This document shows, piece after piece, positions 1,121 to 22,661 of a stretch of DNA of 50,430 nucleotides. Positions within the stretch are counted from its first letter, which is position 1. Every line of letters starts with the position of its first letter. The DNA comes from Bacteroidales bacterium (GTDB lineage: Bacteria; Bacteroidota; Bacteroidia; Bacteroidales; WCHB1-69), in NCBI GenBank assembly GCA_017961265.1, contig JAGCXN010000009.1, forward strand, positions 1 through 50,430, in the 5' to 3' direction. A program made the position numbers and the translations under genes. The notes under the pieces were generated by a model that saw only the letters and a program-made list of their open reading frames with translations, was not told the DNA's origin and did no database searches.

Positions 1121-1539
1121 GATTCTTGGGGTTTATAGCTGATTCGTTTGGCGCAATCGTGTACCATACAAGCATCGCGCCGGTATTCTTCTTCCTTGAC
1201 GGCCAGCTGGTTCTGTAGCCTCATCGCCTGCATCTCCAGATCATACTTGCACCGTTTCATCTTCACCATCTCCTCCCGCATCTCATCATCAAGTTTGTCG
1301 CGCTCCTTCATCTTCTTTTCGTAACTGTTGAGCCGTTCATCCTGATAGTCGAGCTGCTTTTTCAGAGTCTCGAACTCTTTGTCATCCACTTCGGCCTGCG
1401 AGGCGGCATTGCCGATGGCCACTGAGTCGGTTTCGAGTTTTCGTTTCCGGCGTTCCGAAAACCACTGTATGAGACCGAAGAGCGTGGTTCCGCCCAGTAC
1501 GAAATTGAGGATGATTGAAATGACTGATACGGTTTCCAT
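1117..1539 (-). CDS. Small membrane-anchored coiled-coil phage protein, 140 residues
   Basis: Residues about 4-27 (VSVISIILNFVLGGTTLFGLIQWF) form a single hydrophobic segment followed by an Arg/Lys cluster. Residues about 45-120 are a long charged coiled coil (LKKQLDYQDERLNSYEKKM..., MQAMRLQNQLAVKEEEY). Two cysteines near the C-terminus (ACMVHDCAKR) could bind metal or form a disulphide. The ATG at 1539 overlaps the preceding stop by one base, and its own stop overlaps the next start by four. Topology resembles spanin-like or membrane-tethered phage accessory proteins, but the function is unknown. Confidence 0.75.
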   Translation of the reverse strand: METVSVISIILNFVLGGTTLFGLIQWFSERRKRKLETDSVAIGNAASQAEVDDKEFETLKKQLDYQDERLNSYEKKMKERDKLDDEMREEMVKMKRCKYDLEMQAMRLQNQLAVKEEEYRRDACMVHDCAKRISYKPQES

Positions 1540-2531
1540 TATGCCAGAAAGATTTTACGGTTGGTATTGTCGCGGTGGATGATGCCGTCTTCGGGACTGT
1601 CGCCCGCGAAGGCGGTGTAATTGGGGTAGTTGTCGCTGTTTGCCTTGATATGGGCGATGGCGGCAGCCAGGTACTGTTCGGCACGCTGGGCGAAACGGGT
1701 GCGGGTCTCTGCCATCTGGGCGCGGGTGATGGGCGAATCGGTCAAGCCTTCCATGCTGGAAGTCTCGAACAACAACCCCTTTTCGGTGGGCAGCTTGTGC
1801 AGCTCGCCGATGCCTTCTGCCACAGAGCGATAGACCACATACATACGCAAGTAGGGAAGGATAGAAGAATACTTTTGTTCGCTTTCATCGGCAGCAAGCA
1901 GTTCCTTGTAGAACTCTGTGCCAAGGCGGTGCTGTAACTCAATGAGCTCCACATCACGCATATAGTGCCGCATCTTCAGAAAAACGAGACGGCTGTTTTC
2001 AATGTTATAATATCGGTCGAACATCTGTGTGTTGCGGATGAGCGACTTTTGGCTGTTGAGCACGTGTCCGGATTGTGAAAATTCGGTGAAAGTGGTGGCA
2101 TTCGCCTCCAGAAATTCAAGGATGCTGTCCAAATAGTTGAAGCCTTCCTCTTTGAGGGTGCGCTTGATGTTCTCTTCCTGATAGCGGTAGAGGCGGTTTT
2201 CCTTGTCCACTTCGGCAGATACGCCCGTGTCGCTGATATTGGCGGCGAGGATGTCGTAACCCTTCCAGATGGCCAACCGTATGAGGGCGAACCTCGCCAT
2301 ATTGATGAGTTTGCTGTCGGCGGTTTCGGCCATAAGGGCGGGGTTGGCCCCCACGTATGCGGCAAGTCGGTCGAAAAGTGCGGCACCCAGCAGCGGACGC
2401 AGGTACGTCTCTTCGCACAATGCAAGGTGCGAGGCCACGGTCTCAAACCGCAGGTTGATGTTCACGGGCAGGTATTTCTTGAAAGCCTCCGCGTTTTCGC
2501 TGAATTGGGGGGTGAAGAGCTTTGGTTCCAT
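1539..2531 (-). CDS. Phage head-completion/connector-like protein, 330 residues
   Basis: A mostly helical soluble protein with no membrane segment, encoded directly downstream of the portal gene with a 3-base gap. It resembles proteins annotated DUF6712 in Bacteroides phages; that name is from memory and not checked. The position right after the portal, where head-tail connector or adaptor genes usually lie, supports a role in head completion (inference). Distinct features are an aromatic helix (PYLRMYVVYRSVAEGIGEL) and a C-terminal TAFAGDSPEDGIIHRD stretch. Confidence 0.65.
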   Translation of the reverse strand: MEPKLFTPQFSENAEAFKKYLPVNINLRFETVASHLALCEETYLRPLLGAALFDRLAAYVGANPALMAETADSKLINMARFALIRLAIWKGYDILAANISDTGVSAEVDKENRLYRYQEENIKRTLKEEGFNYLDSILEFLEANATTFTEFSQSGHVLNSQKSLIRNTQMFDRYYNIENSRLVFLKMRHYMRDVELIELQHRLGTEFYKELLAADESEQKYSSILPYLRMYVVYRSVAEGIGELHKLPTEKGLLFETSSMEGLTDSPITRAQMAETRTRFAQRAEQYLAAAIAHIKANSDNYPNYTAFAGDSPEDGIIHRDNTNRKIFLA

Positions 2532-2534
2532 AGT

Positions 2535-3857
2535 TTATGTCAATGATTCCTGTGTGTTCCTGCCGCTGTCGAGGGTGGTCAGGGTGATATTGCGGTATTT
2601 GAGGTCGATGTCGTGGATTCCGTTGTACTCGAACATCAGTTCCACTGGATCCAACACCGCCTGTTTTTCAATGTGGCTCAAAATCAGGGAAACCAGCAGA
2701 CCTTCACGGATGTCGGAACCGCTGCCGGCGTTCCCGGAGTACGGACCGCCCGGCATTCCGGCACCCAGCACGCTGGGATTCACCATCAGCGAGAACAGAA
2801 TCTCACTGTTGGCCGCCGCCGACATGCTCAGACGGTCATCGGCTTTGATCTCCCCATCGAGGCGCGTCACCTTCCAGTCGCCGTTGGTGCGACCGCTTTC
2901 GTCGATGTAGTACTGGGTGAAAAGCGACTTGTTGGCATTCTTGGTGTCGGTCAGCTCTTCCTCGAACTTGTCCATAAATTTCTGAATGAGCTGCTTGCGT
3001 TCATCCACATTCTTGTATTCGGTTTTGGGGAACTGTTTCTCCCAGTAGGTGGCGGGGATCTGCACGTGCCACATTAGGTGCATAGCGTTCTGGTAGGCAC
3101 GGTTCAGGAACTCCGGAATCTTGTGGGCAATGTCAATCCAGCCGCTTTCCTGTGCCGACTGCCAGTCGGGTGCGGCATAGTAGTCGTTGTTGCTGAAATA
3201 GTTGCGGATGCGCGGGAAGGCGATGGCTTTCACGCCTTTGAGTTGTCCCGTATCGCGCCGCCATTGGAGATCGTAGAACGGATCATCCTCGTTGAGCATA
3301 TCATAAACCACGGTTTCATCCTTGGCAGGATAGGTGTTTTTGAAGTCGCCATACACCAGCAGCTTGGTCTTGTCAACACTGATGCGGCAGTGACGTGCGT
3401 TGAGGATCTGCACACGCACGATCTTATCGCCCGCGTTGTTGAACACCAACAGCGGGAAGGCGTTGCCGAACTTGATCAGGTCACGGAAAGCGGCGGTGTG
3501 GTAGTTGCGGAAGGCAAGTCCGCGCAGGTAGCTGAGGATGTCGCGGTCGCGCACCGGCGCAAAGATCTCGTTGTTGTTGTCATCAAAGCCGCTCACCTTC
3601 ACCGGCACCACTCCCTGTCCATAACAGCAGCGTGCCTTGTAGTTCAAACCCGTCTGCAACACGCTGGTGGCTCGGATGGTGCGTTCCGCATCGTCGGGGA
3701 AACAGTTGGTGTCGCCCCACGTGGCATAGTCGCGTTTGTCGAACGAGAAGTATTCGTCAAGCCGCTCCTTCACGGGTTTTACCGTCGTGGTGCTGCCGAA
3801 GACGGTTTTGCCCCGGAACACTTTTGGCTCGCCTTTTTTGTCGAATAGGATCTCCAT
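2535..3857 (-). CDS. Phage portal protein
   Basis: The product (440 residues) should form the dodecameric ring at the capsid vertex through which DNA is packaged. Seen: the order small gene-portal-connector downstream of the terminase, and portal-like features: an early GLNYKARCCYGQGVVPV stretch, a central KFGNAFPLLVFNNAGDKI strand pair (portals commonly have a GNAYL-like element), and a late NPSVLGAGMPGGPYSGNAGS glycine-rich segment followed by a helix. I chose the ATG at 3857 because it starts 2 bases after the preceding gene's stop; a longer frame extends to 4001 but would read through the neighbour's coding sequence with Arg/His-rich shadow residues. Confidence 0.8.
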   Translation of the reverse strand: MEILFDKKGEPKVFRGKTVFGSTTTVKPVKERLDEYFSFDKRDYATWGDTNCFPDDAERTIRATSVLQTGLNYKARCCYGQGVVPVKVSGFDDNNNEIFAPVRDRDILSYLRGLAFRNYHTAAFRDLIKFGNAFPLLVFNNAGDKIVRVQILNARHCRISVDKTKLLVYGDFKNTYPAKDETVVYDMLNEDDPFYDLQWRRDTGQLKGVKAIAFPRIRNYFSNNDYYAAPDWQSAQESGWIDIAHKIPEFLNRAYQNAMHLMWHVQIPATYWEKQFPKTEYKNVDERKQLIQKFMDKFEEELTDTKNANKSLFTQYYIDESGRTNGDWKVTRLDGEIKADDRLSMSAAANSEILFSLMVNPSVLGAGMPGGPYSGNAGSGSDIREGLLVSLILSHIEKQAVLDPVELMFEYNGIHDIDLKYRNITLTTLDSGRNTQESLT

Positions 3858-3859
3858 GT

Positions 3860-4138
3860 CTATATCTTTACTCGTACATTGTTGAAACTGCGTATGTTGT
3901 CGATAGATACGGGGTAAATGTGGCCTATGGCGTTGCCGTGGTCGTCCACCTGCTGCACGCCACGTGTGCGGTTGTCGGTCATGTTCATCCGAAGACCACA
4001 ACAGCGGGCGCGGTTGAGCGTCACCAGTTCGCCGTCCTTTTTGTAGAACTGAATGGCGAAGTAGCGGCGGCGACCATCGGCGGTTTCACGGGTCTCCATC
4101 TCTGCCAGCACATCGGCACGGGTGATTGTCTGCTCCAT
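3860..4138 (-). CDS. Small phage protein upstream of portal, 92 residues
   Basis: Unknown function. The sequence contains a RRRYFAIQFYKKDGEL beta hairpin and a CCGLRMNMTDNRTRGVQQVDD stretch. This looks like a small beta-rich domain that may bind nucleic acid or the portal, but no family was recognised. The ATG at 4138 is preferred over an in-frame one at 4192 because the late promoter's -7 box lies at 4156-4163, which puts the transcript start near 4150 and makes the upstream ATG untranscribed from this promoter. It is the first gene of the portal operon. Confidence 0.7.
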   Translation of the reverse strand: MEQTITRADVLAEMETRETADGRRRYFAIQFYKKDGELVTLNRARCCGLRMNMTDNRTRGVQQVDDHGNAIGHIYPVSIDNIRSFNNVRVKI

Positions 4139-4155: not shown

Positions 4156-4197
4156 CAAAGATAAAGCAGCCATTTGAAATGCGCTGGGACAAAAAAA
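4156..4197 (-). promoter_or_regulatory. Late promoter A (TGTCC box + TATCTTTG)
   Basis: On the minus strand a run of T followed by TGTCCCAG (TGTCC at 4191-4187) lies exactly 23 bases before TATCTTTG (4163-4156), a perfect Bacteroidota -7 box. The predicted start is near 4150, giving a leader of about 11 bases before the ATG at 4138. The same arrangement occurs at 9306-9341 and 13,074-13,109. The TGTCC box sits further upstream than the usual -33 element, which suggests an activator site. Confidence 0.7.
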
Positions 4198-4356
4198 TTA
4201 CGAAATGAAAATTGGGGCAAATTCTTAATTTTTAGCATTTTAGCCATCTCTAAAAATATTTCGCACATTGTCAAGCGTTTCGAGAGTCGCCGCTCGCCCT
4301 ACTCTGCGTGGAAATTTCCAACGCCGTCGGCAAGGAAATATGACAAGGTGGTATGG

Positions 4357-6075
4357 CTACAGCGACCGCCCGCCCATCCGCACCGGAACGAAATCGCCGC
4401 CGTCGCGCTTGACGATGGTGCCGTACTTGGTCCACAGAATCTTATCGACGGCATCGGAGAAGTGGGTGGCCTCCTCCGGAAGCACACCGCTGCCGCGCCG
4501 CTCGCTGCTCTTGTCTTTTCCCAGCTTGCCGTCGTACTCCTTCACCATCGCATTGTTCATCGAGATGAGTGTGTAACGGCAGCGGGTGCCGTTGATGCGG
4601 AAGAGCGGCAGTTCCGGATTGTCTTCCTTCAGGATGCTGTTAATGAGCAAGTACTTGTCAGATTGTGGCGGCTCCATTCCCGGATGCTCGTGCTCAATCA
4701 CCGTCCACCCCGCAGCGGTCAGGTACTCCACAGCCAACTGGTTGTAGGTCTTGGATTTCACAATGTTGGGATTGCGGCTGTCACCGTACTTGTCCTTATA
4801 GAAGTGCAGATCTCGGTTAGCGTGCTGGCGGTAGTGGTCGCTGAACTTGGCGCACAGCTCCTTGATGAGCACGTTGCTGTTGCCGTCGGGTTTCACAAAG
4901 AACTCGTTGATGATGTTGTGGACTTCCTGCTGGGTGGTGGTGCCGCTCACAAAGTCGTAGTTCCTGGTTTGGCTCACACTGAAGAGGCAGATGGCAGACC
5001 CCCAGTCGGGTACAATCTCCAATGGTACGGACGGGTTGCAGTCGCGTTCATATAAGGTTGATGCGTATATTTCTTCCGGCTTGTAATCGAAATTAGTGTC
5101 TCTGGCCATCTGCATAAGATTCTCATGATAATCGCCAGCATAGTAAACCTGTTTCTCCTCGTTGATGCTGTAGAAACAATCCTCCACTTTATCGAAGAGG
5201 TAGTTCATCACCTCGATGAGGAAAGTGAGATACGGTTGCTTTTGGTACTCCCGCCGGATGTAGGAGAGGCCGAGGTTCTCCAGATTGTCGAAAGCGTTGC
5301 TACAGGTAAACAACAAACCTTCTTTGCTCAGGAATGGTTCTATCTTGTGCTTGAGGCGGACAATCTCATTCCACGCATCGGCGAACTGGCGCGGATCCGT
5401 CAGCTTCAGCAGCTCGATCTGCATCTTCACGATGCGGTTCCACACGCTGAACAGGTTCACACCTTTCTCCTCCTCGTAGTATTTGGCATATTCCAGAATC
5501 CACCTGCCCGCCTTGGTGGGCGGCATAGAGGTGGAGTACTTGAAGCCGTGATGGAAACTCACCGGGTTCTCGCTGCGTGGACCGAAATACTCGTTGTTGC
5601 CACGGTTGGCGGGCGACACCTCGTAGTCGTACTGCTCCTTGTTGATGGTAAGGGCTTCGTCCATGATCTCGAAGTCGATGTTCTTACCGCGCCCGCTGCC
5701 TTTCTCGCTCTGGCTGATGAGGGCGAAGCACGCCCCGTTGCTGAAGCTGATGATGTTGTCGTAGCGGTTGATCTGCTCGTATGGAGTCTTGAACCAGGAG
5801 GGCGGACGTTTGCACACCACGAAATTGCCGTCCTTCACGTAGCCCATCTTGCCGAGCAGCTTGAGCGACGACGGCAGCGTGTTGGTGAGCAGCTGGCCGT
5901 AGGTCTTCCCGGTGATGGCGGTGATGGAGCGCGGCATCGCCCGCACGATCTTATCCATGGTGAAGCCGATGTCGAAGCTCTTGCCGGTGCCGCGCCCCTC
6001 GACGGAGACGTGGTACTTGGGGCAGAGCATCAGCCCGAGAATTTGGGATTTGGTGGCGGAAACGGAGAGGTTCAT
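4357..6075 (-). CDS. Terminase large subunit (DNA-packaging ATPase/nuclease)
   Basis: The 572-residue product packages phage DNA through the portal. The N-terminal ATPase has a Walker A variant VEGRGTGKSFDIG near residues 25-37 and a Walker B FEIMDEAL near residues 135-142. A C-terminal nuclease domain probably begins at VPDWGSAICLFSV (an Asp at the expected first acidic position) near residue 350. The length is normal for the family. The gene starts 4 bases after the terminase small subunit stop. The 160 bases between its stop and promoter A hold no gene that I can support. Confidence 0.88.
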   Translation of the reverse strand: MNLSVSATKSQILGLMLCPKYHVSVEGRGTGKSFDIGFTMDKIVRAMPRSITAITGKTYGQLLTNTLPSSLKLLGKMGYVKDGNFVVCKRPPSWFKTPYEQINRYDNIISFSNGACFALISQSEKGSGRGKNIDFEIMDEALTINKEQYDYEVSPANRGNNEYFGPRSENPVSFHHGFKYSTSMPPTKAGRWILEYAKYYEEEKGVNLFSVWNRIVKMQIELLKLTDPRQFADAWNEIVRLKHKIEPFLSKEGLLFTCSNAFDNLENLGLSYIRREYQKQPYLTFLIEVMNYLFDKVEDCFYSINEEKQVYYAGDYHENLMQMARDTNFDYKPEEIYASTLYERDCNPSVPLEIVPDWGSAICLFSVSQTRNYDFVSGTTTQQEVHNIINEFFVKPDGNSNVLIKELCAKFSDHYRQHANRDLHFYKDKYGDSRNPNIVKSKTYNQLAVEYLTAAGWTVIEHEHPGMEPPQSDKYLLINSILKEDNPELPLFRINGTRCRYTLISMNNAMVKEYDGKLGKDKSSERRGSGVLPEEATHFSDAVDKILWTKYGTIVKRDGGDFVPVRMGGRSL

Positions 6076-6079
6076 TCTT

Positions 6080-6679
6080 TTACCCCTCCATAATCTCCTT
6101 GGCCTGCGCTTCGGTGATTTCCTGATCCAAGGCTGCGGCGATGAGTTTGTTCTCCTTGATCTTTGCCCACTGGTCGGCGGGTACGGTGATGGTGTTGCCG
6201 TTGATGTTGAGCTGGATGTTGATGGTGTGCTTCTCCATAATGGTGGGATCCATAGGATCCTGAGGCATCTCGGAGAGGTAGCGTTGCAGGGTGGCCAGGT
6301 TCTTGGCGCGGGTGGCTGCGTCGCTGTCTTCGCTGTAGATCTCCTTGATGAGGGCTTGGAGGAACACGGTGTTGAGGAAGTCGCGTTCGAGACGGTCGCC
6401 GGGGTTCCAGATGCGGATGCCTTGGTTGACGTATGTGAGGGCGGTGCGTTCGCTCAGCTCCGGGTGCAGGGCGCACATCTCCTTCACGGCCACGCTCTTG
6501 TTGGGGTAGCCGCACACAATGCGGTAGGCATCGCGGGTAAGGTCGAGTTTGTGCCGCTGGTCGTCATTCAGGTCGCCGCTGCGCCCTTGCATCACGGCAA
6601 GGGCAATGGTCTCGAAGTCGCTTTCACCGGAGCTGCCGTACTCTTTGCGCACGGCGGGAAGTGGTTTGGTATCGCTCAT
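6080..6679 (-). CDS. Terminase small subunit-like protein
   Basis: A soluble helical protein of 199 residues immediately upstream of the large terminase with a 4-base gap. Residues about 40-95 (DQRHKLDLTRDAYRIVCGYPNKSVAVKEM...) have the helical DNA-binding appearance of small terminases, and the C-terminal part is charged. The assignment is mainly positional: small subunits recognise the packaging site and load the large subunit. No strong promoter box was found in the 83 bases between it and the upstream gene. Confidence 0.65.
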   Translation of the reverse strand: MSDTKPLPAVRKEYGSSGESDFETIALAVMQGRSGDLNDDQRHKLDLTRDAYRIVCGYPNKSVAVKEMCALHPELSERTALTYVNQGIRIWNPGDRLERDFLNTVFLQALIKEIYSEDSDAATRAKNLATLQRYLSEMPQDPMDPTIMEKHTINIQLNINGNTITVPADQWAKIKENKLIAAALDQEITEAQAKEIMEG

Positions 6680-6762
6680 TTGACTGTAATTTGCTTTTGT
6701 TTGCTTGAATCAATGTTAAAGTACAGATAACCAATAGGTTCTTTATTTGACTGATATGTGAC

Positions 6763-7602
6763 TTAATTTGCCGATCTCCGCGCCAGCTCTTCCGTCACTG
6801 CCTTGAACTCCGCTTTCAGGGCCTTCAGTTTTTGTTCGTATTCGTCGCGTTTGGGGCCTTTAGGCATTGGGGTAGGGGAGGCGGCTTTGCGGATGCTCTG
6901 GTATTGCAGCATGTTCTGTGTCTTGGTGATGGAGGAACGCAGCTGGGTGCGGCGTTTGGATAATTGCAGATCTGTCAATCCGGATACGTTTGTTTGTAGA
7001 GACGTGGCGTGCCGCGTCTCTACAGGTGCGCATATCGTCGGCTGTTCCTCCAACGGGGCGGCCAGCATCTCCCGGATGTCGTTGGACACCTGTTCACGGG
7101 CGGTGCCGTCATCGAGGGCAAACCATTCCTCCTTCAGCCGGTAGAGACGGTCGGCACGCTGGATGGCGGGCTTGCGTTCATCGAGGATGCGTTTCCGATG
7201 GCGCACCACATCATCGGCATTGGAGGTACCCAGGTCATACAGTTCCCGGTGCCGTTTGTCGATGAGGGCGTACAGGGCGGCCACCTCCTTCTTGGCGGCA
7301 AGGATGAAATCGGGGATAACCATGTTCTTTGTTTGCCCTTTGAAATGCGTTGGCGCATTGGGCGTTGATGGTGCCTGATATGGTGCAGATGGCTGGCTGT
7401 TCGCCCATTTATTCGCCCTTTCATCTGACACCGTTTTCGCCACTTTCCCTATCTCATACACAAGTTTGCCCATACGGAAGCGTGCCGTGCCGGTCTGGAA
7501 ATAGCGTACCAGTGCCTTGTTTTTGCTGTACTGGGCAAATAGTGCCACACCTTCAGCATAGTCGCGGTCGGGATTGTCAAGCCAGGATTGTAATTCGTTC
7601 AT
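6763..7602 (-). CDS. Phage protein of unknown function with coiled coils, 279 residues
   Basis: No family recognised. The N-terminal third (MNELQSWLDNPDRDYAEGV...LVRYFQTGTARFRMGKL) is compact and helical, the middle has a Pro/Ser/Gln-rich linker (ANSQPSAPYQAPSTPN), and the rest is charged coiled coil. A palindromic genomic repeat (6995-7024) is read in frame inside the gene as ETRHATSLQ, so part of the linker near residues 192-202 probably comes from a repeat insertion. The gene lies 12 bases downstream of another coiled-coil gene, between the DUF4417 pair and the terminase genes. Confidence 0.7.
   Translation of the reverse strand: MNELQSWLDNPDRDYAEGVALFAQYSKNKALVRYFQTGTARFRMGKLVYEIGKVAKTVSDERANKWANSQPSAPYQAPSTPNAPTHFKGQTKNMVIPDFILAAKKEVAALYALIDKRHRELYDLGTSNADDVVRHRKRILDERKPAIQRADRLYRLKEEWFALDDGTAREQVSNDIREMLAAPLEEQPTICAPVETRHATSLQTNVSGLTDLQLSKRRTQLRSSITKTQNMLQYQSIRKAASPTPMPKGPKRDEYEQKLKALKAEFKAVTEELARRSAN
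6995..7024. repeat. Palindromic TGTAGAGACG repeat inside a phage gene
   Basis: TGTAGAGACG and its exact complement CGTCTCTACA flank TGGCGTGCCG, whose core GGC-GT-GCC also pairs, so nearly the whole 30 bases can fold as one hairpin. A diverged copy with the same arms lies at 47,277-47,307 in the host chromosome. Palindromes with TAGAGACG arms are known dispersed repeats in several bacterial phyla. This one keeps the reading frame of the gene it sits in. Confidence 0.85.
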
Positions 7603-7614
7603 TTTAATTGAATG

Positions 7615-8004
7615 TTAGAGGGCTGACTTAATCGTTTCCTTTTCGGTTTCGTACCAGTCGGTAAGACGGCGTGCTTCGTCATCGAGGGCAAGCCGTTTCT
7701 GTAGGATTCCATCGTTCAGTTTTGCCCGTCGCAATTCTTTCTCCTGTTTCAGATTGGCGATGGCGTGTTCTACATCACGGATGTAGGCAATGTCGGCACC
7801 TTGGATCCGAAGTTCCGTCACTTGCTGAAGGAGACGTTCCCGTTTTGCAGAGAACTCTTCCAAACCGTGGAGGATGTAGGCCGATTTTTCAGCAATCAGT
7901 TCATCTTTCCGGCGGTTGATTTCGTTGCTTTTCTTCCTGTACTCGCGGTTCAGGGCGGCCATCTGCATATCGCGCTGGGCCTGTGTCATTGGTTGATTTT
8001 CCAT
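7615..8004 (-). CDS. Small all-helical coiled-coil phage protein, 129 residues
   Basis: The product is almost entirely a charged helix with heptad-like spacing (REYRKKSNEINRRKDELIAEK, FSAKRERLLQQVTELRIQG, EARRLTDWYETEKETIK), with no cysteine, signal or membrane segment. It could be a second scaffold-like or structural accessory protein, but there is no specific evidence. It is the first gene after a 179-base gap that carries a plus-strand promoter. Confidence 0.7.
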   Translation of the reverse strand: MENQPMTQAQRDMQMAALNREYRKKSNEINRRKDELIAEKSAYILHGLEEFSAKRERLLQQVTELRIQGADIAYIRDVEHAIANLKQEKELRRAKLNDGILQKRLALDDEARRLTDWYETEKETIKSAL

Positions 8005-8019
8005 AATTTGATTGTTTTA

Positions 8020-8049
8020 TTGTTGGTTTTCAGAAATTTTGTATTTTTG
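8020..8049 (+). promoter_or_regulatory. Plus-strand Bacteroidota-type promoter in the late region
   Basis: TTG at 8020-8022, a 19-base spacer and TATTTTTG at 8042-8049 match the general Bacteroidota promoter (TTTG-N19-TAnnTTTG). It faces opposite to every neighbouring late gene, with the transcript start expected near 8056. It lacks the TGTCC box of the late promoters, so it would use the host sigma factor and could be active in the lysogen. Confidence 0.65.
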
Positions 8050-8056
8050 CAGTGTC

Positions 8057-8200
8057 GTTTTCGGACGAGGAGAGATCCGGGCTTAAGGTCGCCAAGTTGT
8101 AATGACTTACAGACTGTCCGGACTTTTCAGGAGGATTCGCAGAAAATGGGTTTTAGATCCCGGGGTTTCGGTTTCCTCCTTTTTTATTTGCAGTTTTTAG
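8057..8200 (+). ncRNA. Candidate small structured RNA or 32-codon mRNA, opposite to the late genes
   Basis: Downstream of the promoter at 8020-8049 the RNA can close on itself: GAGGA and CCGGG near 8067-8080 pair with CCCGG near 8160 and TCCTC near 8174. A later AGGAGGA (about 8130) competes for the same TCCTCCT, which is followed by TTTTTT at about 8180, as in an intrinsic terminator. An ATG at 8102 opens a 32-codon frame to TAG at 8200 (start MTYRLSGLFRRIRRKW, very basic). The T-run falls inside that frame, so terminator and peptide readings conflict. There is no gene on the other strand between 8005 and 8183. Function unknown. Confidence 0.5.
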
Positions 8201-8654
8201 TAATCGCATGGAGTCTATATTTATAATAAAATGTCCCTTTTCGCTTCCCTTTTCTTTCATATTTGTATCTTGCTATGTTAAAGTAGATGCGGCGACCTCG
8301 TACTTTCAGATAATGGAATTTGTCAATGTTGTCATCGGGACGGTCTTTGTATAATTCGGATGTTTTTTTGAAATATGAATTATTTAATTGTTTGTTTAAT
8401 TTCTTTACTTTTGTACTGGCAATGACCTTTTTGTCAACTATGTTGTAAGCAAGGTGTTTATAGTCTTCATTTTCTATGTGAATGGTTATTGTCTTTGGTT
8501 TGCCGTTTTCATCGCGAATGATTGCTTTGAATTTGTGTGGCAATGTCTGCTTTAGCTCGGCTTTGACTTGCAATCTTCTTTTTGCGATTGCCGACTTGGT
8601 TTTATCTGTAGTTCCTTTACCGGCCCCTGTGGAACCTGCTCCTCCTCCGTTCAT
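8184..8654 (-). CDS. Small basic protein paired with the DUF4417 gene, possible nuclease-like domain
   Basis: The start at 8654 is fixed by the ATGA overlap with the upstream stop (8651-8654); a longer frame to 8792 reads a shadow of the neighbour. The product has 156 residues: a Gly/Ser/Lys-rich start (MNGGGAGSTGAGKGTTDK) and a strongly basic alpha-beta region ending in HYLKVRGRRIYFNIARYKYE...YYKYRLHAITKN. The Lys/Arg/Tyr/His-rich beta strands recall RelE-like or phage-encoded small RNase domains that accompany head proteins, but no catalytic signature is certain. It could equally be a nucleic-acid-binding structural protein. Confidence 0.65.
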   Translation of the reverse strand: MNGGGAGSTGAGKGTTDKTKSAIAKRRLQVKAELKQTLPHKFKAIIRDENGKPKTITIHIENEDYKHLAYNIVDKKVIASTKVKKLNKQLNNSYFKKTSELYKDRPDDNIDKFHYLKVRGRRIYFNIARYKYERKGKRKGTFYYKYRLHAITKNCK

Positions 8655-9274
8655 GGTCTTATCTGTTTTAGTATGATGTTGTCGAAATACACAACATTGG
8701 TGTCCCCAAAGTCGAAATCCAGCGGTTTGCCGTAGTGCAGTATGGTTGTGGGGTTCAGGCGGCGCATAGCTTCTCTCATCCCTTTTTTCCAAAACTCTCG
8801 CCCCCGTTTGCTCATAGCCGGTCCCTGCGTGCTCACGGCAATGGTTCCGCCTGGTTCAATGCCATCGAAACAGAACTGGAAGGTCCTTTCTTCCGCCCAC
8901 ATCACCGTTGGCACCACTGTGAGCCCATTGCGTTGCCAGTACTCTGCCACGAACTGCCGCCTCCAGTTGTTCCACATCTTCATTGCCAAAGGCATATCGG
9001 TGTACAGACTAAAACCAGGCGAAAGCACAAAAGGAAACTGCGCCAGCATTTCGATGTATTTTCCTGGTCTGCGCCATACCCGCTCAAACTGGTAGTCATC
9101 CAGAAAGAAGTGAACCCCAACATCTTTCCGCTTGCAAGTGCGTGCCAGATTGAAAGGCAGCAAAATTTCAGTTGGTCTCACATCCTGTCGGCGGATGACG
9201 GGCATGTCGTATTTTCCGTCACAATGGTCATTGATTAAATCCAAGTGGTAGTATCGGTTGGTGCGTTCCGCCAT
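8651..9274 (-). CDS. DUF4417 family phage protein
   Basis: Recognised by its characteristic blocks: LPFNLARTCKRKDVGVHFFL, DDYQFERVWRRP, LSPGFSLYTDMPLAMKMWN, NWRRQFVAEYWQ, GLTVVPTVMW, FCFDGIEPGGTIAVSTQG. The family is found in phages and mobile elements, and its biochemical role is not established. The ATG at 9274 gives 207 residues and lies 25 bases downstream of the predicted start of promoter B; a longer frame to 9370 would cross that promoter. It is coupled to the downstream basic protein by a 4-base overlap. Confidence 0.8.
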   Translation of the reverse strand: MAERTNRYYHLDLINDHCDGKYDMPVIRRQDVRPTEILLPFNLARTCKRKDVGVHFFLDDYQFERVWRRPGKYIEMLAQFPFVLSPGFSLYTDMPLAMKMWNNWRRQFVAEYWQRNGLTVVPTVMWAEERTFQFCFDGIEPGGTIAVSTQGPAMSKRGREFWKKGMREAMRRLNPTTILHYGKPLDFDFGDTNVVYFDNIILKQIRP

Positions 9275-9305
9275 TTTCGCTTTTGTTTTGTGTAGGTTTT
9301 CGCCA

Positions 9306-9341
9306 CAAACATACACCAAGCCGAAAAATAAAGTGTGGACA
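9306..9341 (-). promoter_or_regulatory. Late promoter B (TGTCC box + TATGTTTG)
   Basis: Minus strand: a run of A then TGTCC (9341-9337), 23 bases, then TATGTTTG (9313-9306), with the ATG of the DUF4417 gene 32 bases further on. Spacing is identical to late promoters A and C. A second, orphan TGTCCCAG box lies 28 bases upstream at 9358-9376, just after a terminator. Confidence 0.7.
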
Positions 9342-9370
9342 TTTTTTTTCCACCCCGTGCGCTGGGACAA

Positions 9371-9400
9371 AAAAAAGAGCCGCCGTCGCCGGCAGCTCTT
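9371..9400 (-). terminator. Rho-independent terminator of the capsid-region transcript
   Basis: Minus strand: AAGAGC, GCCG stem, GCGA tetraloop (GNRA type), CGGC, GCTCTT, then eight Ts. The stems are at 9400-9395/9380-9375 with an inner GCCG/CGGC. It follows the stop of the structural gene at 9439 and precedes promoter B. Confidence 0.88.
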
Positions 9401-9438
9401 CGGAAATGAAACAACGTGAACAACAAGGCACTGCGGAC

Positions 9439-10299
9439 CTAAGATTCGGTGGTGAAGGAGTACTCGGCTGTGCGCACCTCACGTCCACCCAACACCATGT
9501 AGGCGTAGTAGATGTAGTCGGTGCTGTCATCGAGGTCGGTAATAGCCTTCGTGAAGGGAACTTCAGGAGTGAAGTCATCGACAGGGGCGTTCGTCCAAAC
9601 ACTGGCACCTTCCTTTTTATAGCGGAAACCGACGCTGTCAACTGGAGTGTCGTTCTCGGTGACAGTGGCTGAGAGGGTCGCACCGGAGCTGGTAACACTG
9701 CTTTCACTGCCCATCGCGATGGTAGCCATAGTGCCGACAGAAAGGAGGTTCTTTGTGGTTCCCTTGTAGATGGTGGGTGCAGCGGTGTCGGTGTAGAAGG
9801 TGAGATCTGCGCCGTGAGCGTCGGTGCCTGCCTTGCCGGAGGTGGCTTCGCCGCTTTCGTACTCACAGCCTTCATCGGCATCGCCCAGCATGTGCCAATC
9901 CTTGTTGGCGGTCTGGCACAGGATCACCATCTCCTGGTTGGCGGTGGCTGCCATAAAGCCAAGCAGTTTGGCGCGAAGCGCGGGTGAGTAGATCTGGAGC
10001 GACGACTTGAAGCTGCGGCTTCCGCTTTCACCCTGAAGGGTGTACTTCAGCTCTGCGGAGTTCTTCTTAATCTCAATCTTGAAGAACCGCTTGCCACTTT
10101 TCATCGTCATATTGTCGCCATCTTCGGTCTCAATATGGTCGGCCAGTCCATTACGGAGGATGGGTGCCTTTTTCGACGGCCAGTGATCCACATCGTCCTT
10201 CAGGGCGACGAGGATGGTGCTGACGACACCGCCTTTGGTGTTCTCGCACACGGTCGGGCGGTTAAGGTCTTCTAAACAAACGGGACATTGTTCTGACAT
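9439..10299 (-). CDS. Phage structural protein with C-terminal Ig/FN3-like domain (tail-tube or decoration candidate)
   Basis: The 286-residue product lies right after the capsid gene. The N-terminal region starts with a CPVCLEDLNRPTVCENT stretch (four cysteines). The middle (KRFFKIEIKKNSAELKYTLQG...LRAKLLGFMAATANQEMVIL...DWHMLGDADEGCEY) looks like Bacteroides-phage tail-tube or capsid-associated proteins. The last 90 residues (GATLSATVTENDTPVDSVGF...STDYIYYAYMVLGGREVRT) form an FN3/Ig-like domain related in style to those at the end of the capsid protein. A strong terminator between the capsid gene and this one should lower its expression relative to capsid. The exact role is unresolved. Confidence 0.7.
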   Translation of the reverse strand: MSEQCPVCLEDLNRPTVCENTKGGVVSTILVALKDDVDHWPSKKAPILRNGLADHIETEDGDNMTMKSGKRFFKIEIKKNSAELKYTLQGESGSRSFKSSLQIYSPALRAKLLGFMAATANQEMVILCQTANKDWHMLGDADEGCEYESGEATSGKAGTDAHGADLTFYTDTAAPTIYKGTTKNLLSVGTMATIAMGSESSVTSSGATLSATVTENDTPVDSVGFRYKKEGASVWTNAPVDDFTPEVPFTKAITDLDDSTDYIYYAYMVLGGREVRTAEYSFTTES

Positions 10300-10330
10300 A
10301 GTTATTTGATTTTAAAGGTTTTGGTAATGT

Positions 10331-10363
10331 GAAAAAGTGTTGGCGTGCCAGGCACGCCAACAC
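10331..10363 (-). terminator. Strong terminator hairpin between capsid and downstream structural gene
   Basis: A perfect 13-base inverted repeat, GTGTTGGCGTGCC (10337-10349) and GGCACGCCAACAC (10351-10363), with a single central base; on the minus strand it is followed by TTTTT (10336-10332). It lies in the 80-base gap between the capsid stop and the next ATG. Partial termination here would set the ratio of capsid to downstream protein. Confidence 0.9.
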
Positions 10364-10379
10364 GGGATTGGGGATTCCG

Positions 10380-11945
10380 CTATGCGGTGGTGAAGGTCTG
10401 CCACGAGGTGTAGATCTTCTCCGTGCCGACCTTGACGTAGGCGCGCACGTAGTAGGCGGTGGCGGTGGTGAGACCGGTGAGGTTCACGGCCATCGTTCCT
10501 GCAGACGGCGTTCCGTCGGTGTTGGTCGGATCGCTGGAGAGGCTGGTGGTGACTTCCACACCGCCGCCGGTAACAAGGCTGCTCGGATCGCTGTAGGTCA
10601 GCGTTGCCGTAGCACCGGTTGCAGCGATGCTGCTCATGGCCAGTGCGGTCACGGTCGGGGCGGTGGTCAGGGTCTTCACATTGAGCTTGGCACTCTTGTA
10701 GGTGTCGGTACCGGCCACTACCTGCAACTGCACGTGGTAGTTGGTGTTGCGGCTCAAACCTGTGAGCTGTGCCGTGTAGTTGTTGCCAACCTTGGTGACA
10801 CTTGCGGTGCTGCCGAGGGACGTGGTAGTTCCGTAGGCGAACTGGATGGTTGCGCCTTCGGGAAGTTCACCGTTGATCACACCGGTAAGGTCGATGGTGG
10901 TGTCACCGGGAACGGCACCGGTAATAATCGGATTGGTGGTTCTCACCACGATACCGTCTTCGGGGCTGGCGGTGTCGGCGGCGGAGTCGTTGCCGACAGT
11001 TTCGGCGGTGGCCCACACCATCTTATTAACTCCAAAGCCGATGCCCTCACGCCAGTCGCCGAGAATCTTCACGTAGCGATCTTCTTTCTGTACATCGAAG
11101 GCAAATTTGTCCTTGCGGGTGATCCACAGGAGATTGCCCTGTACGTAGGCGAACATGTCCTTGCTGCCGGCCATGCTCGGAAGACCCATTACCACATGCT
11201 TGGTGAAATCGACGTTGCTGTTGATGTCCTGCGGACCGTTCAGCCAGTAGAAACCTGCGGAACGCTTGTTCTCCAAAAACGCACGCTTGAACTCCTGCGA
11301 TACGCAGATGATGATGGGCGCGTTCTGGTAGATGGGTTTGAAGGACTTGGAGAAGGCCTCCACCTGGTCAAGCACAGAGCTCTCTTCCAGAGCACCAATG
11401 CCCGAAATGACATTGATTGGGTAGGAGGAAGCAGCACCGTCGATGAGCTTCTTGCGGATGCCATCCATGCAGGAGGAAGGAGACGTGCCGGCATCGTCAC
11501 GCACACCGTAATAGACGGCGTTGATCTCACGATCGTAGTCAATCTGCTGTTTCAGATAAACCTCAATCATGTATCTCGTGATGGGCCATTGTTCACGCTT
11601 CACACCTTCGCCTTCGAGAAAACCGAGCCAAGAGTCGATGATCTGGTCAGGTGAGAAATGCAGGTCCACCTTGATGTGCTGCAACTCAATCTTGTTAGGA
11701 TGGAACTTCACGCCGCCTTTCGGCTCGAACGGCACGCGGAAGGGTTGGAGAACCGGTTGGAACTCGTCGTTGGCCATCTCATAGATGTCATCGGTGATTC
11801 TCTTGTGGGTGGCGAAACGCTCCAGGGTCTCGGCTTTCTGGATCAGGGCACGCTTGATGCGGTCGAGGCCTTGTCCTCTTTGTTGGTAGATTCTACCGTA
11901 TTCCTCTACGATAAAATCGGTGTTGATGGTTGTATTAACAGGCAT
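10380..11945 (-). CDS. Major capsid protein, HK97-like, with two C-terminal Ig/FN3-like domains
   Basis: A 521-residue protein directly downstream of the prohead protease/scaffold gene, the usual place of the major capsid gene. Residues 1 to about 330 carry the capsid fold (LQPFRVPFEPKGGVKFHP, VYLKQQIDYDREINAVYYG, WLNGPQDINSNVDFTKHVV, AYVQGNLLWITRKDKFAFDV). Residues about 340-430 and 430-521 are two beta-sandwich domains with the FN3-like pattern LTGLSRNTNYHVQLQV and LTGLTTATAYYVRAYV. Such domains on phage capsids are known to be displayed on the surface and can bind carbohydrates or mucus (family knowledge; binding here is inference). It is followed by a strong terminator. Confidence 0.83.
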   Translation of the reverse strand: MPVNTTINTDFIVEEYGRIYQQRGQGLDRIKRALIQKAETLERFATHKRITDDIYEMANDEFQPVLQPFRVPFEPKGGVKFHPNKIELQHIKVDLHFSPDQIIDSWLGFLEGEGVKREQWPITRYMIEVYLKQQIDYDREINAVYYGVRDDAGTSPSSCMDGIRKKLIDGAASSYPINVISGIGALEESSVLDQVEAFSKSFKPIYQNAPIIICVSQEFKRAFLENKRSAGFYWLNGPQDINSNVDFTKHVVMGLPSMAGSKDMFAYVQGNLLWITRKDKFAFDVQKEDRYVKILGDWREGIGFGVNKMVWATAETVGNDSAADTASPEDGIVVRTTNPIITGAVPGDTTIDLTGVINGELPEGATIQFAYGTTTSLGSTASVTKVGNNYTAQLTGLSRNTNYHVQLQVVAGTDTYKSAKLNVKTLTTAPTVTALAMSSIAATGATATLTYSDPSSLVTGGGVEVTTSLSSDPTNTDGTPSAGTMAVNLTGLTTATAYYVRAYVKVGTEKIYTSWQTFTTA

Positions 11946-11956
11946 AGTGATTGGAT

Positions 11957-13051
11957 TTAGAGGTTTTCTTCAAATGTTTTCTTGTAAACGGGACTGTTTT
12001 TGACATAGTCTTCAACAGACTCTTCGTTCACATTCACATCCTTTCCGTTCACGCCCGGCACGTTGGCGGGGGCGTTCTCGTACTTGGCTTTGTAGTTGTC
12101 GCGCTCGGCGGTGAGGGTGGCAATGAGCGTGTCCTTTTCGGCAATGGAGGTGTTGGCGGCGGCCAGATCCTCGTTCGCCTTCTGAAGGTCGCTCTCTTTC
12201 TGGGAGAATTTGGCTTCAAGGTCGGCAAAGGCCTTCAGCTTATCCTCCATCTTCTGGAGCTGCTCCGGATTGAGCAGCACTCCAGTCTTTTCGTCATACT
12301 CCGTATCGTCCTTTAAGGCAAGGAGCGCACCCAGCATGGCGAAACTGAGCAAGAATTTCTTCATAACTGCGGGATTTTGGTTAATAATTTGATTAGTATT
12401 CATCTCCGGGAACAGGGCGCGGGCGTGGTTGAGGAACCTCGCCATCGCCGTCGCCGGTTTCTTTTCATCGGTGTCGAACTCCTGAATCTCCGTGGCAAAG
12501 CCGAAAGCCAACGCATCCTCGGCAGTGATCCACTTGCCTTTGCCGTTGTTGGCAGCGAAAAGCGCGTTCAGTTCGGCTTCATCTTTCTTCAGCACCTCCT
12601 TGTACACGTTCAGTACCACCTCGTTGACAGTGCGCTGCTGCTCCAAGGTCTCTTCCAGCGCGTTCTCGTTGGCATCGTACACGCTGTTCATGCACTTGTG
12701 GATCAAAAACAGGGCGTTGGGAGAGATGATGCGGCGGTCGCCGGCGCAGGCGATCACGGTGGCCGCACTGGCACAGAACCCCTGCACGATGGTCGTCACC
12801 TTGGCGGGATGCTCCTTCAGCGCGTCGTGGATCTGCAAGGCATCGTCCACGTAGCCGCCAAGGGAGGTGATCAGCACCTCAATTTCGGAAACGGGCAGTT
12901 TCTCCAGCTCCTTCAGCTTGGCGCGGATGTCGGTGCCGGTATTCTTGTACTTCCATTCGTCCCAGTCGAAGCCGCCGATGGTGCCGTCAATCTCAATACG
13001 GGCCTTGTTGGCCGTTACAGGTACAATATTCAGAAATTCGCGGTTGGGCAT
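11957..13051 (-). CDS. ClpP-type prohead protease fused to scaffold
   Basis: Residues 1 to about 205 are an S14/ClpP-like protease: SLGGYVDDALQIHDALKEH, nucleophile Ser95 in GFCASAATV, and His118 in LFLIHKC. After a linker, residues about 220-364 are a scaffold: a short hydrophobic stretch (MKKFLLSFAMLGALLAL) and a coiled coil (LQKMEDKLKAFADLEAKFSQK...). The protease cleaves the scaffold and itself during prohead maturation. An internal in-frame ATG at 12,403 (codon 217), followed by an AT-rich stretch, could give separate scaffold of 148 residues, as in lambda Nu3. The gene has its own late promoter and ends 11 bases before the capsid ATG. Confidence 0.87.
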   Translation of the reverse strand: MPNREFLNIVPVTANKARIEIDGTIGGFDWDEWKYKNTGTDIRAKLKELEKLPVSEIEVLITSLGGYVDDALQIHDALKEHPAKVTTIVQGFCASAATVIACAGDRRIISPNALFLIHKCMNSVYDANENALEETLEQQRTVNEVVLNVYKEVLKKDEAELNALFAANNGKGKWITAEDALAFGFATEIQEFDTDEKKPATAMARFLNHARALFPEMNTNQIINQNPAVMKKFLLSFAMLGALLALKDDTEYDEKTGVLLNPEQLQKMEDKLKAFADLEAKFSQKESDLQKANEDLAAANTSIAEKDTLIATLTAERDNYKAKYENAPANVPGVNGKDVNVNEESVEDYVKNSPVYKKTFEENL

Positions 13052-13073
13052 AACTCTTTGTGGTTGTTTCCGG

Positions 13074-13113
13074 CAAAGGTACAGCCACTTATCCGTTTTC
13101 TCTGGGACAAAAA
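13074..13113 (-). promoter_or_regulatory. Late promoter C (TGTCC box + TACCTTTG)
   Basis: Minus strand: TTTTTGTCCCAG (TGTCC at 13,109-13,105), 23 bases, TACCTTTG (13,081-13,074), with the protease/scaffold ATG at 13,051. Besides the box, its spacer shares GTGGCTG just before the -7 box with promoter A (ATGGCTGCTT). It would drive protease-scaffold-capsid expression. Confidence 0.72.
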
Positions 13114-13138: not shown

Positions 13139-13591
13139 CTATTCGAGCGGGAAAACGGGGTAGGTGGTACTCCTGAAGAAACGGAGCCGGTAGCAACGCT
13201 TGCCAGTGGCATCCGCGTCACCGATATGGTCGTAGGCGAAGTTGAGCGGTTCATCGGGCATCCCGGCAAGCCACATCTTCCGGTTGCGATCCGTGAGGCG
13301 CAACACGAATTTGTGTCGGCACCAGTCGCGCAAACTCACTTCAACATCTGCATTAGTAGCGTGCAGCAAACAACTGATTTCCAATTCATACGCACCATCA
13401 TTAAAGGGATTTTGCAGGGCGATGTCGGTGCAGGGTATGTGTCCCCAGGCGCACCCGGTCTTCAGGGTGACGGAGCGGGTTGTGGCACTGGCCATCGGTG
13501 CGGATGCCACCTCATAGTCGTAGGCGGCATTCAGCAGAACGTAACCGGGCAGGTTGGGACAGTTGCGGTCATTTTTCGGTAAATTTTCCAT
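13139..13591 (-). CDS. Phage protein of unknown function, 150 residues
   Basis: No family recognised. A beta-rich soluble protein with several cysteines (KTGCAWGHIPCTDIAL, LEISCLLHATNADVEVSLRDWC) and a C-terminal RCYRLRFFRSTTYPVFPLE. It sits between the 166-residue gene upstream and promoter C, and its stop lies 25 bases upstream of the promoter's TGTCC box. It may be a minor capsid or head-decoration protein, on position only. Confidence 0.7.
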   Translation of the reverse strand: MENLPKNDRNCPNLPGYVLLNAAYDYEVASAPMASATTRSVTLKTGCAWGHIPCTDIALQNPFNDGAYELEISCLLHATNADVEVSLRDWCRHKFVLRLTDRNRKMWLAGMPDEPLNFAYDHIGDADATGKRCYRLRFFRSTTYPVFPLE

Positions 13592-13634
13592 TTTTGAGGG
13601 TGTTTTTTATGCGTTGGACATTTACGACAAAGAT

Positions 13635-14135
13635 TTATGGGTTTTGGAGGTGGCCCACAATTTGGCGCACCCTATCTTCTTCAGGTTTGAATTTGCGCTG
13701 GTAATGCTTCAGCAGACGGCTCTCTTTGATGATGTCGTCGTATTGTTCCGCATCCAACACGGCTTTGATGGCATTGAGGCGGCTTGTTCCGGTGGCGGCG
13801 GTGAGGGTGGCCACCTGGAAACAGAGATAGTTCAGTATCTCCGCTTCGATAATCCGGCTGAAGTTGTACTGTTGGTTGTCGGCTACTATCCAGCCATAGT
13901 GGTAGAAGTCGCGCTGGGTGACACCGATCCACACCGAGACATACATGTCGAACTTTTGCGGCACATCGGTCGGCATCGTCACCTTCTGGCGCGATAGCAT
14001 CTGGCTCACCATCCAGTAGTAGCGGCTGCCGGTAAGGTCGATGGCACCGTCGGTGGTGGGGAAGCGGTTGAGCAGGAACCGGCGCACCGCCGGATCCACC
14101 CGCACCTCAATCCGATACAAAACCCGTTTTCTCAT
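13635..14135 (-). CDS. First gene left of the iteron region, unknown function, 166 residues
   Basis: No family recognised. A soluble alpha-beta protein: an N-terminal KRVLYRIEVRVDPAVRRFLL strand-helix, a TGSRYYWMVSQMLSRQ helix, and a charged C-terminus (DDIIKESRLLKHYQRKFKPEEDRVRQIV). Position at the boundary of early and late regions, with its own host-type promoter and no TGTCC box, makes it a candidate for the regulator that activates the late promoters, but no DNA-binding motif is clear. Confidence 0.65.
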   Translation of the reverse strand: MRKRVLYRIEVRVDPAVRRFLLNRFPTTDGAIDLTGSRYYWMVSQMLSRQKVTMPTDVPQKFDMYVSVWIGVTQRDFYHYGWIVADNQQYNFSRIIEAEILNYLCFQVATLTAATGTSRLNAIKAVLDAEQYDDIIKESRLLKHYQRKFKPEEDRVRQIVGHLQNP

Positions 14136-21888: not shown

Positions 21889-22173
21889 CTATATTTCTGG
21901 TTCCATGGGTCTAAGAAGCCCCTTTCCTTCAAGCTGCTCGTTGAGCCATTCCGGCACTCTTTCATCTATTAATCCTTGAGAATGAAAGACAGTCTTGCCG
22001 GGGTCACTGACACTTAGTTCTTCCCATGTTATGGTCACCCCTCTTTTTTCGGTTCTCAGTTCGTATCCGAGTGCTCGAACGGCCTTGGCTATCTGCGCAA
22101 AGCTGCTCTTATGAGATAGCCGATACTTGAACAAGTAGCGTTTTTCTGTCTTAATACAACTTTTCATGATCAT
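21889..22173 (-). CDS. Early phage protein of unknown function, 94 residues
   Basis: A basic alpha-beta protein (KRYLFKYRLSHKSSFAQIAK, ALGYELRTEKRGVTITWEEL). The ATG overlaps the methyltransferase stop by 4 bases. An internal ATG two codons later is an alternative start. No family recognised. Confidence 0.55.
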   Translation of the reverse strand: MIMKSCIKTEKRYLFKYRLSHKSSFAQIAKAVRALGYELRTEKRGVTITWEELSVSDPGKTVFHSQGLIDERVPEWLNEQLEGKGLLRPMEPEI

Positions 22174-22661
22174 TCAATTGGTAACTTCATAAAAACCATC
22201 CATATACAATGCCTACTCGTCTTATGACCAACAAGTGGTACTTGACCGATTGCCTGTATCACACTTTTTACTTTTGCATCTATATCAGACCATTTGAATA
22301 TTAGTACGCCATAGTCGTCCAATACTCTCATACACTCGTTAAATCCCTTTTTGATATTGTCTTTCCACGAATTTCGCTCTAATCGTCCATATTTCTTAGT
22401 GTATATGGAATTGATACCAGGGTTAATCAAATGTGGGGGATCAAATATTACCAGCTTATATGACTTGTCTGGCATACTCATATTAGTGTAATCACCCAGA
22501 AAGTTTGGATGTACGAGCAGATAACGTCCGTTTTGCAGCACACAATCCTCTTCTCTTATGTCCTGAAAATCTACCAAGGGGTTGTCCTTGTCAAACCAGA
22601 ACATGCGAGATCCGCAGCAAGCGTCCAATATGGGTTTCCCGTCAGAAATCATAGTTTTCAA
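22170..22661 (-). CDS. Class I SAM-dependent methyltransferase, adenine-DNA type
   Basis: A short 163-residue Rossmann methyltransferase. Motif I ILDACCGSRMFWFDK (residues 11-25) binds SAM, and motif IV VIFDPPHL (D-P-P-H) is typical of phage N6-adenine methyltransferases of the DPPH/MT-A70-like type. A late KWSDIDAKVKSVIQAIG helix follows. It probably modifies phage DNA against restriction, alongside the C5 enzyme (inference). Coupled to the next gene by ATGA. Confidence 0.75.
   Translation of the reverse strand: MKTMISDGKPILDACCGSRMFWFDKDNPLVDFQDIREEDCVLQNGRYLLVHPNFLGDYTNMSMPDKSYKLVIFDPPHLINPGINSIYTKKYGRLERNSWKDNIKKGFNECMRVLDDYGVLIFKWSDIDAKVKSVIQAIGQVPLVGHKTSRHCIWMVFMKLPIE

Follow-up and report, generated by a model that had tools for sequence, protein, structure and literature searches.

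The DNA analysed here (the window) is an entire 50,430-base contig, JAGCXN010000009.1, of a Bacteroidales genome of 1.89 Mb that is 77% complete. Its left half is a prophage whose genes lie on the minus strand in the order primase, candidate activator, a companion of 150 amino acids (aa), head protease, putative capsid, DUF4417 protein, terminase large subunit, portal and adaptor. Our subject is a promoter element that occurs three times in this prophage: the word TGTCC followed, after exactly 23 bases, by a -7 box of the form TAnnTTTG. The cultured Polaribacter phage Leef_1 has a related portal, adaptor, terminase and primase, and the six closest relatives of the terminase (92-96%) are from Bacteroidales genomes, mostly with names pointing to ruminants. 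The open-reading-frame caller favoured some plus-strand frames and missed the protease, the 150 aa gene and the candidate activator of a second contig, C20; hence gene starts there were checked by hand. The three promoters and the genes around them are as follows.

4156-4163, minus strand: -7 box of promoter 1, TATCTTTG, preceding the gene at 3860-4138 and the portal gene (a portal by its similarity to that of Leef_1)
4187-4191, minus strand: TGTCC box 1, within TTTTTTTGTCCCAG (pattern search)
9306-9313, minus strand: -7 box of promoter 2, TATGTTTG, preceding the DUF4417 gene at 8651-9274
9337-9341, minus strand: TGTCC box 2 (pattern search)
13074-13081, minus strand: -7 box of promoter 3, TACCTTTG, preceding the head maturation protease gene
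13105-13109, minus strand: TGTCC box 3, within TTTTTGTCCCAG (pattern search)
3860-4138, minus strand: 92 aa protein, first gene of promoter 1
2535-3857, minus strand: portal protein (similarity to Leef_1)
1539-2531, minus strand: head-tail adaptor, DUF6712 (similarity and domain match)
8651-9274, minus strand: DUF4417 protein, first gene of promoter 2 (domain match)
11957-13051, minus strand: head maturation protease of the Clp type, first gene of promoter 3 (domain match)
10380-11945, minus strand: putative capsid, called by its place; similar to Leef1_42, recorded as a YceI family protein
4357-6075, minus strand: terminase large subunit, the query for fetching relatives

All three copies were located where the original prediction, made from the letters alone, had placed them. 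They are the only matches to TGTCC-N23-TAnnTTTG in the window, each lies immediately before a phage operon, and 100 dinucleotide shuffles of the window gave a mean of 0.02 matches and never reached three. TGTCC alone is no more frequent than expected (103 found, 101.6 expected), so the signal is its fixed distance to the -7 box. Indeed, among spacers of 5 to 99 bases only 23 recurs (three times), with 34 and 51 found once each. The -7 boxes end 18-32 bases before the gene starts at 4138, 9274 and 13051. According to PMC10620806, the main-sigma promoter of Bacteroidota combines TTTG at -33 with TAnnTTTG at -7. No TTTG lies 18-22 bases before the -7 box at any of the three promoters, and TGTCC occupies -40 to -36 if TA is taken as -12/-11, which bears out the proposal that the element is displaced upstream of the usual -33 place, to near -40. 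On the minus strand of positions 1-26000, six TAnnTTTG boxes precede an open frame; three of them have TGTCC, always at spacer 23, and none has TTTG at 18-22. The claim that the sites precede structural operons holds for the portal and the protease-capsid side (promoters 1 and 3). The "DUF4417 pair" named for promoter 2 was half right, because 8651-9274 matches DUF4417 and its neighbour at 8184-8654 gave no such match. The homopolymer run said to precede each TGTCC is present in the window (T, A and T), and relatives show only a T-rich tendency.

Elsewhere in the source genome the pattern occurs on contig C20 (four times), C27 (twice) and C11 (once), which with the window makes ten. C20 encodes a terminase of the same group and C27 a tail tape measure gene. 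One C20 site and one C27 site lie inside genes of more than 1300 aa and may be chance matches.

The original prediction had proposed a search for the spacer-23 motif in related phages, and its recurrence before virion-gene operons is clear in loci fetched with the terminase. These were collected by protein, not by motif, and comprise 160 loci (the best 80 of each of two sets, 130 viral and 94 genome loci); the alignment was built from six motif-bearing phages, and L241 and L243 are among the 160. On the strand of the terminase gene, the spacer between TGTCC and a following TAnnTTTG is 23 at 145 sites, 24 at 14 and 22 at four, and every other spacer from 12 to 39 has between zero and three sites. 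The opposite strand has one site at spacer 23. At least one spacer-23 site is present in 80 of the 160 loci. Five control words gave no such peak, except for TTTTG (31 at spacer 26), where TTTTG overlaps the TGTCC box. Removal of identical sites leaves 140 (124 at 23, 12 at 24 and four at 22), and an open frame of at least 60 aa starts within 80 bases downstream at 134 of the 138 distinct sites with enough sequence. An earlier scan of at least 120 viral stretches peaked at spacer 22 (at least 17 sites), with at least eight at 23, 13 at 16, 10 at 24, 12 at 26 and 10 at 28; it was weak alone, and the terminase-fetched loci were used instead. Twelve records picked by hand from that scan, all with spacer 22 or 23, hold 33 sites and no reversed controls, a biased sample since the records were so chosen.

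The consensus of the distinct sites is a T-rich stretch (43-55% T at seven positions), TGTCC, C or T, A or T, T, little further conservation, and then TA(T)(T/C)TTTG C; letters at the pattern positions were fixed by the search, and those flanking them were free. The base after TAnnTTTG is C at 74% of the distinct sites with spacer 23. There is one box, which is asymmetric, and the consensus holds no -33 signal. The -7 box is degenerate in some relatives. A canonical -33 TTTG was also sought in the box-free promoters of relatives and gave no clear signal, so that promoters with and without the box cannot be contrasted in that way. Several loci have features of their own. Three phages of Bacteroidaceae (L308, L309 and L321) use spacer 24 at most or all of their sites; L309 also has one at 23. 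G001 has divergent promoters with boxes back to back, at 3755 (minus) and 3762 (plus), between a minus-strand gene and a plus-strand gene of 1783 aa. In a genome named Treponema, a 4.1 kb contig (L298) encodes a terminase of this phage group, probably because of a binning error.

A second phage lineage uses a different distance. It was represented by 23 loci fetched with a 237 aa protein of large phages, from source contigs of 6.7 to 129.5 kb; three of these loci (L324, L333 and L342) are the seed phages, which bear the motif. On the gene strand, spacer 22 occurs 34 times and every other spacer from 10 to 44 at most once (20 and 36, once each); on the opposite strand spacers 22 and 21 occur twice each and four others once. 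A gene-strand site is present in 18 of the 23 loci, and one phage of 82.9 kb has 11 sites at spacer 22.

The box, or a variant of it, is also present in cultured phages. In Ingeline_1, TGTCC stands 23 bases before TAnnTTTG or TAnnnTTG four times; these four are among its TGTCCTTTT words, of which seven lie on the late strand and one on the opposite strand. Leef_1 has six TGTCCTTTT words, on the late strand only: one is 23 bases before TATACTTG, at the protease gene, two precede CATCTTGC by eye, and three have no clear -7 box. TGTCC sites of this kind are absent from laban6-1, where TGTCACAA occurs five times, only on the late strand and each time 23 bases from a partly matching -7 box (by eye). 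Phage 6H has four TGTCTTA words, again on the late strand only, three of them 22 bases from a partly matching -7 box (by eye).

Together, these distributions make TGTCC-N23-TAnnTTTG almost certainly a real promoter class. What reads it? We put the probability that the class is served by a phage-encoded activator at about 0.75, judging from sequence patterns. Under this model, TGTCC(C/T)(A/T), at about -40 to -34, would be the binding site of the activator, and the target promoters would be those of virion and other phage operons. Host RNA polymerase with its main sigma factor would still read the -7 box, and the activator, rigidly placed 23 bases from it (22 in the second lineage, sometimes 24), would supply the missing -33 contact. 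Here we infer that a protein binds the box and activates, as well as when it acts and which protein it is.

For that identity we slightly favour the 166 aa family encoded at 13635-14135, again on comparative grounds. The genes that bear on this choice are as follows.

13635-14135, minus strand: candidate activator, 166 aa, of a profile family of phage loci
14150-14157, minus strand: -7 box of the candidate activator, TATATTTG, with TGTCC box absent
13139-13591, minus strand: companion, 150 aa, between the candidate activator and promoter 3; no family match
15697-18474, minus strand: primase (DUF5906), upstream of the candidate activator
23504-23812: gene of the Cro/C1 helix-turn-helix (HTH) type with a sub-threshold Sigma70_r4 match (E about 0.06)

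Upstream of the primase, the prophage also has two DNA methyltransferase-like genes, at 19599-21230 and 22170-22661.

Members of the candidate family are about 165-230 aa long, and their gene precedes that of the head protease on the late strand; it comes directly after the primase region in the window, G005 and G008. The family is present in 75 of the 160 terminase loci, always on the terminase strand, and in 70 of the 81 whose sequence extends 10 kb upstream of the terminase. Among the first 15 sequences it was found in six (the window, C20, G003, G005, G006 and G008) and was not found in C27, four large phages and four other records. Cultured phages matched the profile as well, with E values for a 15-protein set of 4.6e-20 (Leef1_39), 1.1e-6 (laban gp42), 9.6e-6 (6H gp40) and 5.8e-4 (Ingeline1_41); the Ingeline match is weak, at 0.022 in a search of all frames. 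A search with the single window protein found no relative, and tblastn in annotated phages gave chance matches only. Beyond the stop codon of the window gene, the family alignment continues for about 17 codons (13584-13635).

TGTCC(C/T) lies upstream of the activator gene in 2 of 64 cases, of the protease in 33 of 64 and of the terminase in 1 of 158, with a background of 0.027 per gene; the candidate would be made mostly from a box-free promoter, before the switch. When promoters were anchored on the next long gene after the activator, nGTCC(C/T) stood at 23 in 30 of 73; spacer 24 had seven sites, and no other spacer exceeded two. The first base of the 30 boxes is T in 25, A in four and C in one, and three of the four A boxes belong to divergent members (G112, G196 and G208), the fourth (L239) not being divergent. 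More generally, variant boxes accompany divergent members of the family: TGTCACAA in laban6-1, TGTCTTAAA in 6H and AGTCCTTT in G112, G196 and G208. At the start of the activator gene itself, a TGTCC site with a -7 box is present in L190 (2086), L280 (2089) and L320 (3690; TGTCCA), which could mean self-activation.

Several observations weigh against this assignment or against the simple form of the model. In the 81 loci with 10 kb upstream, box and activator occur together in 50, the activator without a strict box in 20, the box without an activator in four and neither in seven, and their co-presence is inseparable from shared phage ancestry; in one of the four box-only loci, L244, the activator gene lies just outside the stretch. 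No DNA-binding domain was recognised in the family in Pfam, PHROGs or sequences of the Protein Data Bank (PDB). Among 61 members, Pfam gave no convincing match, the best shared one being DUF3793 in two (E 0.002), and one member had a weak wHTH_TTC3 match (E 0.033); PHROGs gave two families with one member each and nothing convincing, and PDB sequences gave no match up to E 5. A conserved C-terminal pattern, AI..F...Y....W..SIRK...R, is helix-turn-helix-like by eye only. At 43 of the 73 anchored promoters there is no nGTCC(C/T) at 23 before a good -7 box, some of them having TGTCCA, weaker -7 boxes, a spacer of 24 or other boxes. Box letter and activator are not always paired, since L239 (AGTCC) and L194 (CGTCC) carry ordinary family members. 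C27 has two sites and no match to the candidate activator or terminase, and each site falls within a called open frame, in one case that of the tape measure gene. Finally, the 237 aa protein of the second lineage occupies the same slot, and one hhalign comparison of it with the activator gave P 0.0053 and a probability of 6.8%; a link by sequence between the two was rejected as not significant.

The activator may instead be another protein shared by these phages: the 150 aa companion, a LuxR-like protein or an unseen small protein. We consider this unlikely. The companion occupies the same slot, and Leef1_40 is weakly linked (E 0.024 in both cases) to the companion of G003 and to a gene of the second lineage, but no family match was found for the companion. 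Cultured relatives carry an annotated LuxR-like or regulator gene, but four LuxR-like proteins had no relative at E 0.05 in the called frames of the 15 sequences searched, where the caller misses some genes.

Is the element confined to phages? We searched 198 genomes of the order for a strict pattern, TGTCCYW-N21-TAnnTTTGC, with reversed-pattern controls summed by hand. There were 53 matches, 20 of them in four genomes that carry these phages (G000, 7; G132, 8; G119, 4; G160, 1). The other 194 genomes had 33 matches, against 57 for the reversed pattern. Outside those four genomes, the strict motif is no commoner than its reversed control. One contig of G132 repeats the layout of the window, with five boxes after the activator gene. 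The activator profile matched in 10 of the 198 genomes, five of which have the strict motif; the strict motif is absent from the other five (G034, G064, G109, G112 and G196). Eight stretches were taken from six activator-positive genomes (three from G034 and one each from G109, G112, G196, G208 and G146, with G064 left out), and in seven of them TGTCC or AGTCC stands 23 bases from a box matching at least five of the six letters of TAnnTTTG; L364 has neither word at 23 from such a box, and the opposite strands of the eight have one TGTC match. Some genome stretches are also contigs of the terminase set (G132 C7/L244, G160 C188/L252 and G034 C41/L273 among them), so the two samples are not independent. 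G119 has four boxes and no activator match; its activator may lie on an unassembled piece, since genes of this phage group are found on its four contigs.

The element is specific to phages, and in two phage lineages it stands at an exact distance from the -7 box that precedes operons of virion genes. Its lack of enrichment in host chromosomes favours a phage protein. It also makes it improbable that TGTCC is read by a factor of the host, or by the host sigma factor in an unusual mode, and that the phages borrowed it. That explanation would suit the host-type -7 box and the presence of the box with many hosts, but not the excess of reversed over strict matches or a spacer that varies between phage lineages.

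Quite improbable, too, is a role for the box as the operator of a prophage repressor that silences late promoters in the lysogen. Repressors also act near -35, and the prophage has the Cro/C1-type HTH gene at 23504-23812. However, the box is single and lacks symmetry, one phage of 82.9 kb contains it 11 times, it is found in phages of several host families, and an operator needs neither a missing -33 element nor one exact distance to the -7 box.

The original prediction allowed for an activator or an alternative sigma region, and of the two the activator fits better. A phage sigma factor or polymerase subunit that reads the whole promoter would explain a strict two-part promoter found at phage genes only, but we rate it as less probable again because the TAnnTTTG box of the host sigma factor is retained. 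In addition, no sigma domain scored above the cut-off in the scanned phage proteins (some small genes were outside the scan) or in the candidate family, where sigma-70 regions 2 and 4 were sought with Pfam in the 61 members; the sole sigma-like match among the scanned proteins is the Sigma70_r4 match noted above.

The box often touches terminators. At 19 of 139 sites an upstream terminator ends just before it; the same holds for 6 of 3000 random places and for 13 of the 687 TAnnTTTG boxes that lack TGTCC. The T-rich tract before TGTCC is in part the tail of that terminator. Upstream of the protease in L209, L308, L319 and others, the box sits by eye in the loop of a terminator-like hairpin (2 of 139 sites by script). 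That the box works in RNA, within such terminators, is nevertheless the least probable of the explanations considered, since 118 of 139 sites have no such hairpin by script and the constant quantity is the distance to the downstream -7 box. In the window, two further features lie upstream of promoter 2.

9365-9369, minus strand: orphan TGTCC box, within TGTCCCAGCGCA, without a -7 box at 23
9369-9398, minus strand: terminator-like hairpin and T run (by eye), running into the orphan box

There are 23 bases between the TGTCC of the orphan TGTCCCAGCGCA and box 2. A relative, L245, is 98% identical over 101 bases, up to just past the orphan box, where it carries TATCTTTG at spacer 23. Most simply, this would reflect an exchange of the downstream module at the promoter, with the incoming DUF4417 module bringing its own box.

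What would a phage-encoded activator acting at TGTCC mean more broadly? Bacteroidota dominate many guts, and the timing of virion genes in their tailed phages is little described. The motif is a marker, readable from the letters, of operons in prophages and metagenomic phages; one gene family is named for testing, and the cultured phages Ingeline_1 and Leef_1 are available as systems. Recurrence across a large group of Bacteroidota phages points to a shared, so far unnamed late-gene switch. In its broadest form, the proposal is that an unnamed family of small activators, in temperate and large Bacteroidota phages (Duneviridae, Helgolandviridae and many uncultured ones), switches on virion genes via a single TGTCC box at about -40 that replaces the -33 contact, and that box letters and spacer (22, 23 or 24) diverged with the activator. 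We give this even odds. If true, it would offer a protein-DNA code readable from nature.

In the literature searched, which had most subscription journals outside its scope, we found no description of a TGTCC promoter element. Activators of phage late promoters are a known kind; the TGTCC promoter class and the candidate family look new. As far as the text of PMC8375218 available goes, crAss-like phages of Bacteroidota have timed early, middle and late genes and a virion RNA polymerase, and their late genes likely depend on host polymerase; they share Bacteroidota hosts with the phages described here, but no late promoter element is named in that text. Flavophages of the Duneviridae and Helgolandviridae (PMC8776804) share with the window the candidate family and the box, either as such or in variant form; the main text of that paper uses neither "promoter" nor "late genes" and notes a LuxR protein in Leef. 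The terminase, portal and adaptor are common to the window, Leef_1 and Ingeline_1. Compared with the account in PMC10620806, the TGTCC class resembles the main-sigma promoter in its -7 TAnnTTTG close to the gene start and differs from it in lacking TTTG about 19-21 bases before the -7 box, with TGTCC 23 bases upstream instead.

The TGTCC class shares with activator-dependent phage late promoters an upstream site at a fixed distance, a missing -35/-33 element, a virion-operon context and phage specificity. No match to known activator families (Mor/C, Ogr, cII and others in Pfam) was found among the 61 candidate members. Mor and C of Mu, Ogr of P2, cII of lambda and MotA of T4 are late or middle activators that work beside sigma; in each case a small early or middle phage protein steers host polymerase to promoters with a poor -35 element. 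Their sites differ, those of Ogr lying further upstream, those of MotA closer, and those of cII and C being repeats or dyads, unlike the single TGTCC box. By analogy with Mor/C, Ogr, cII and MotA, the proposed activator would act in the same way.

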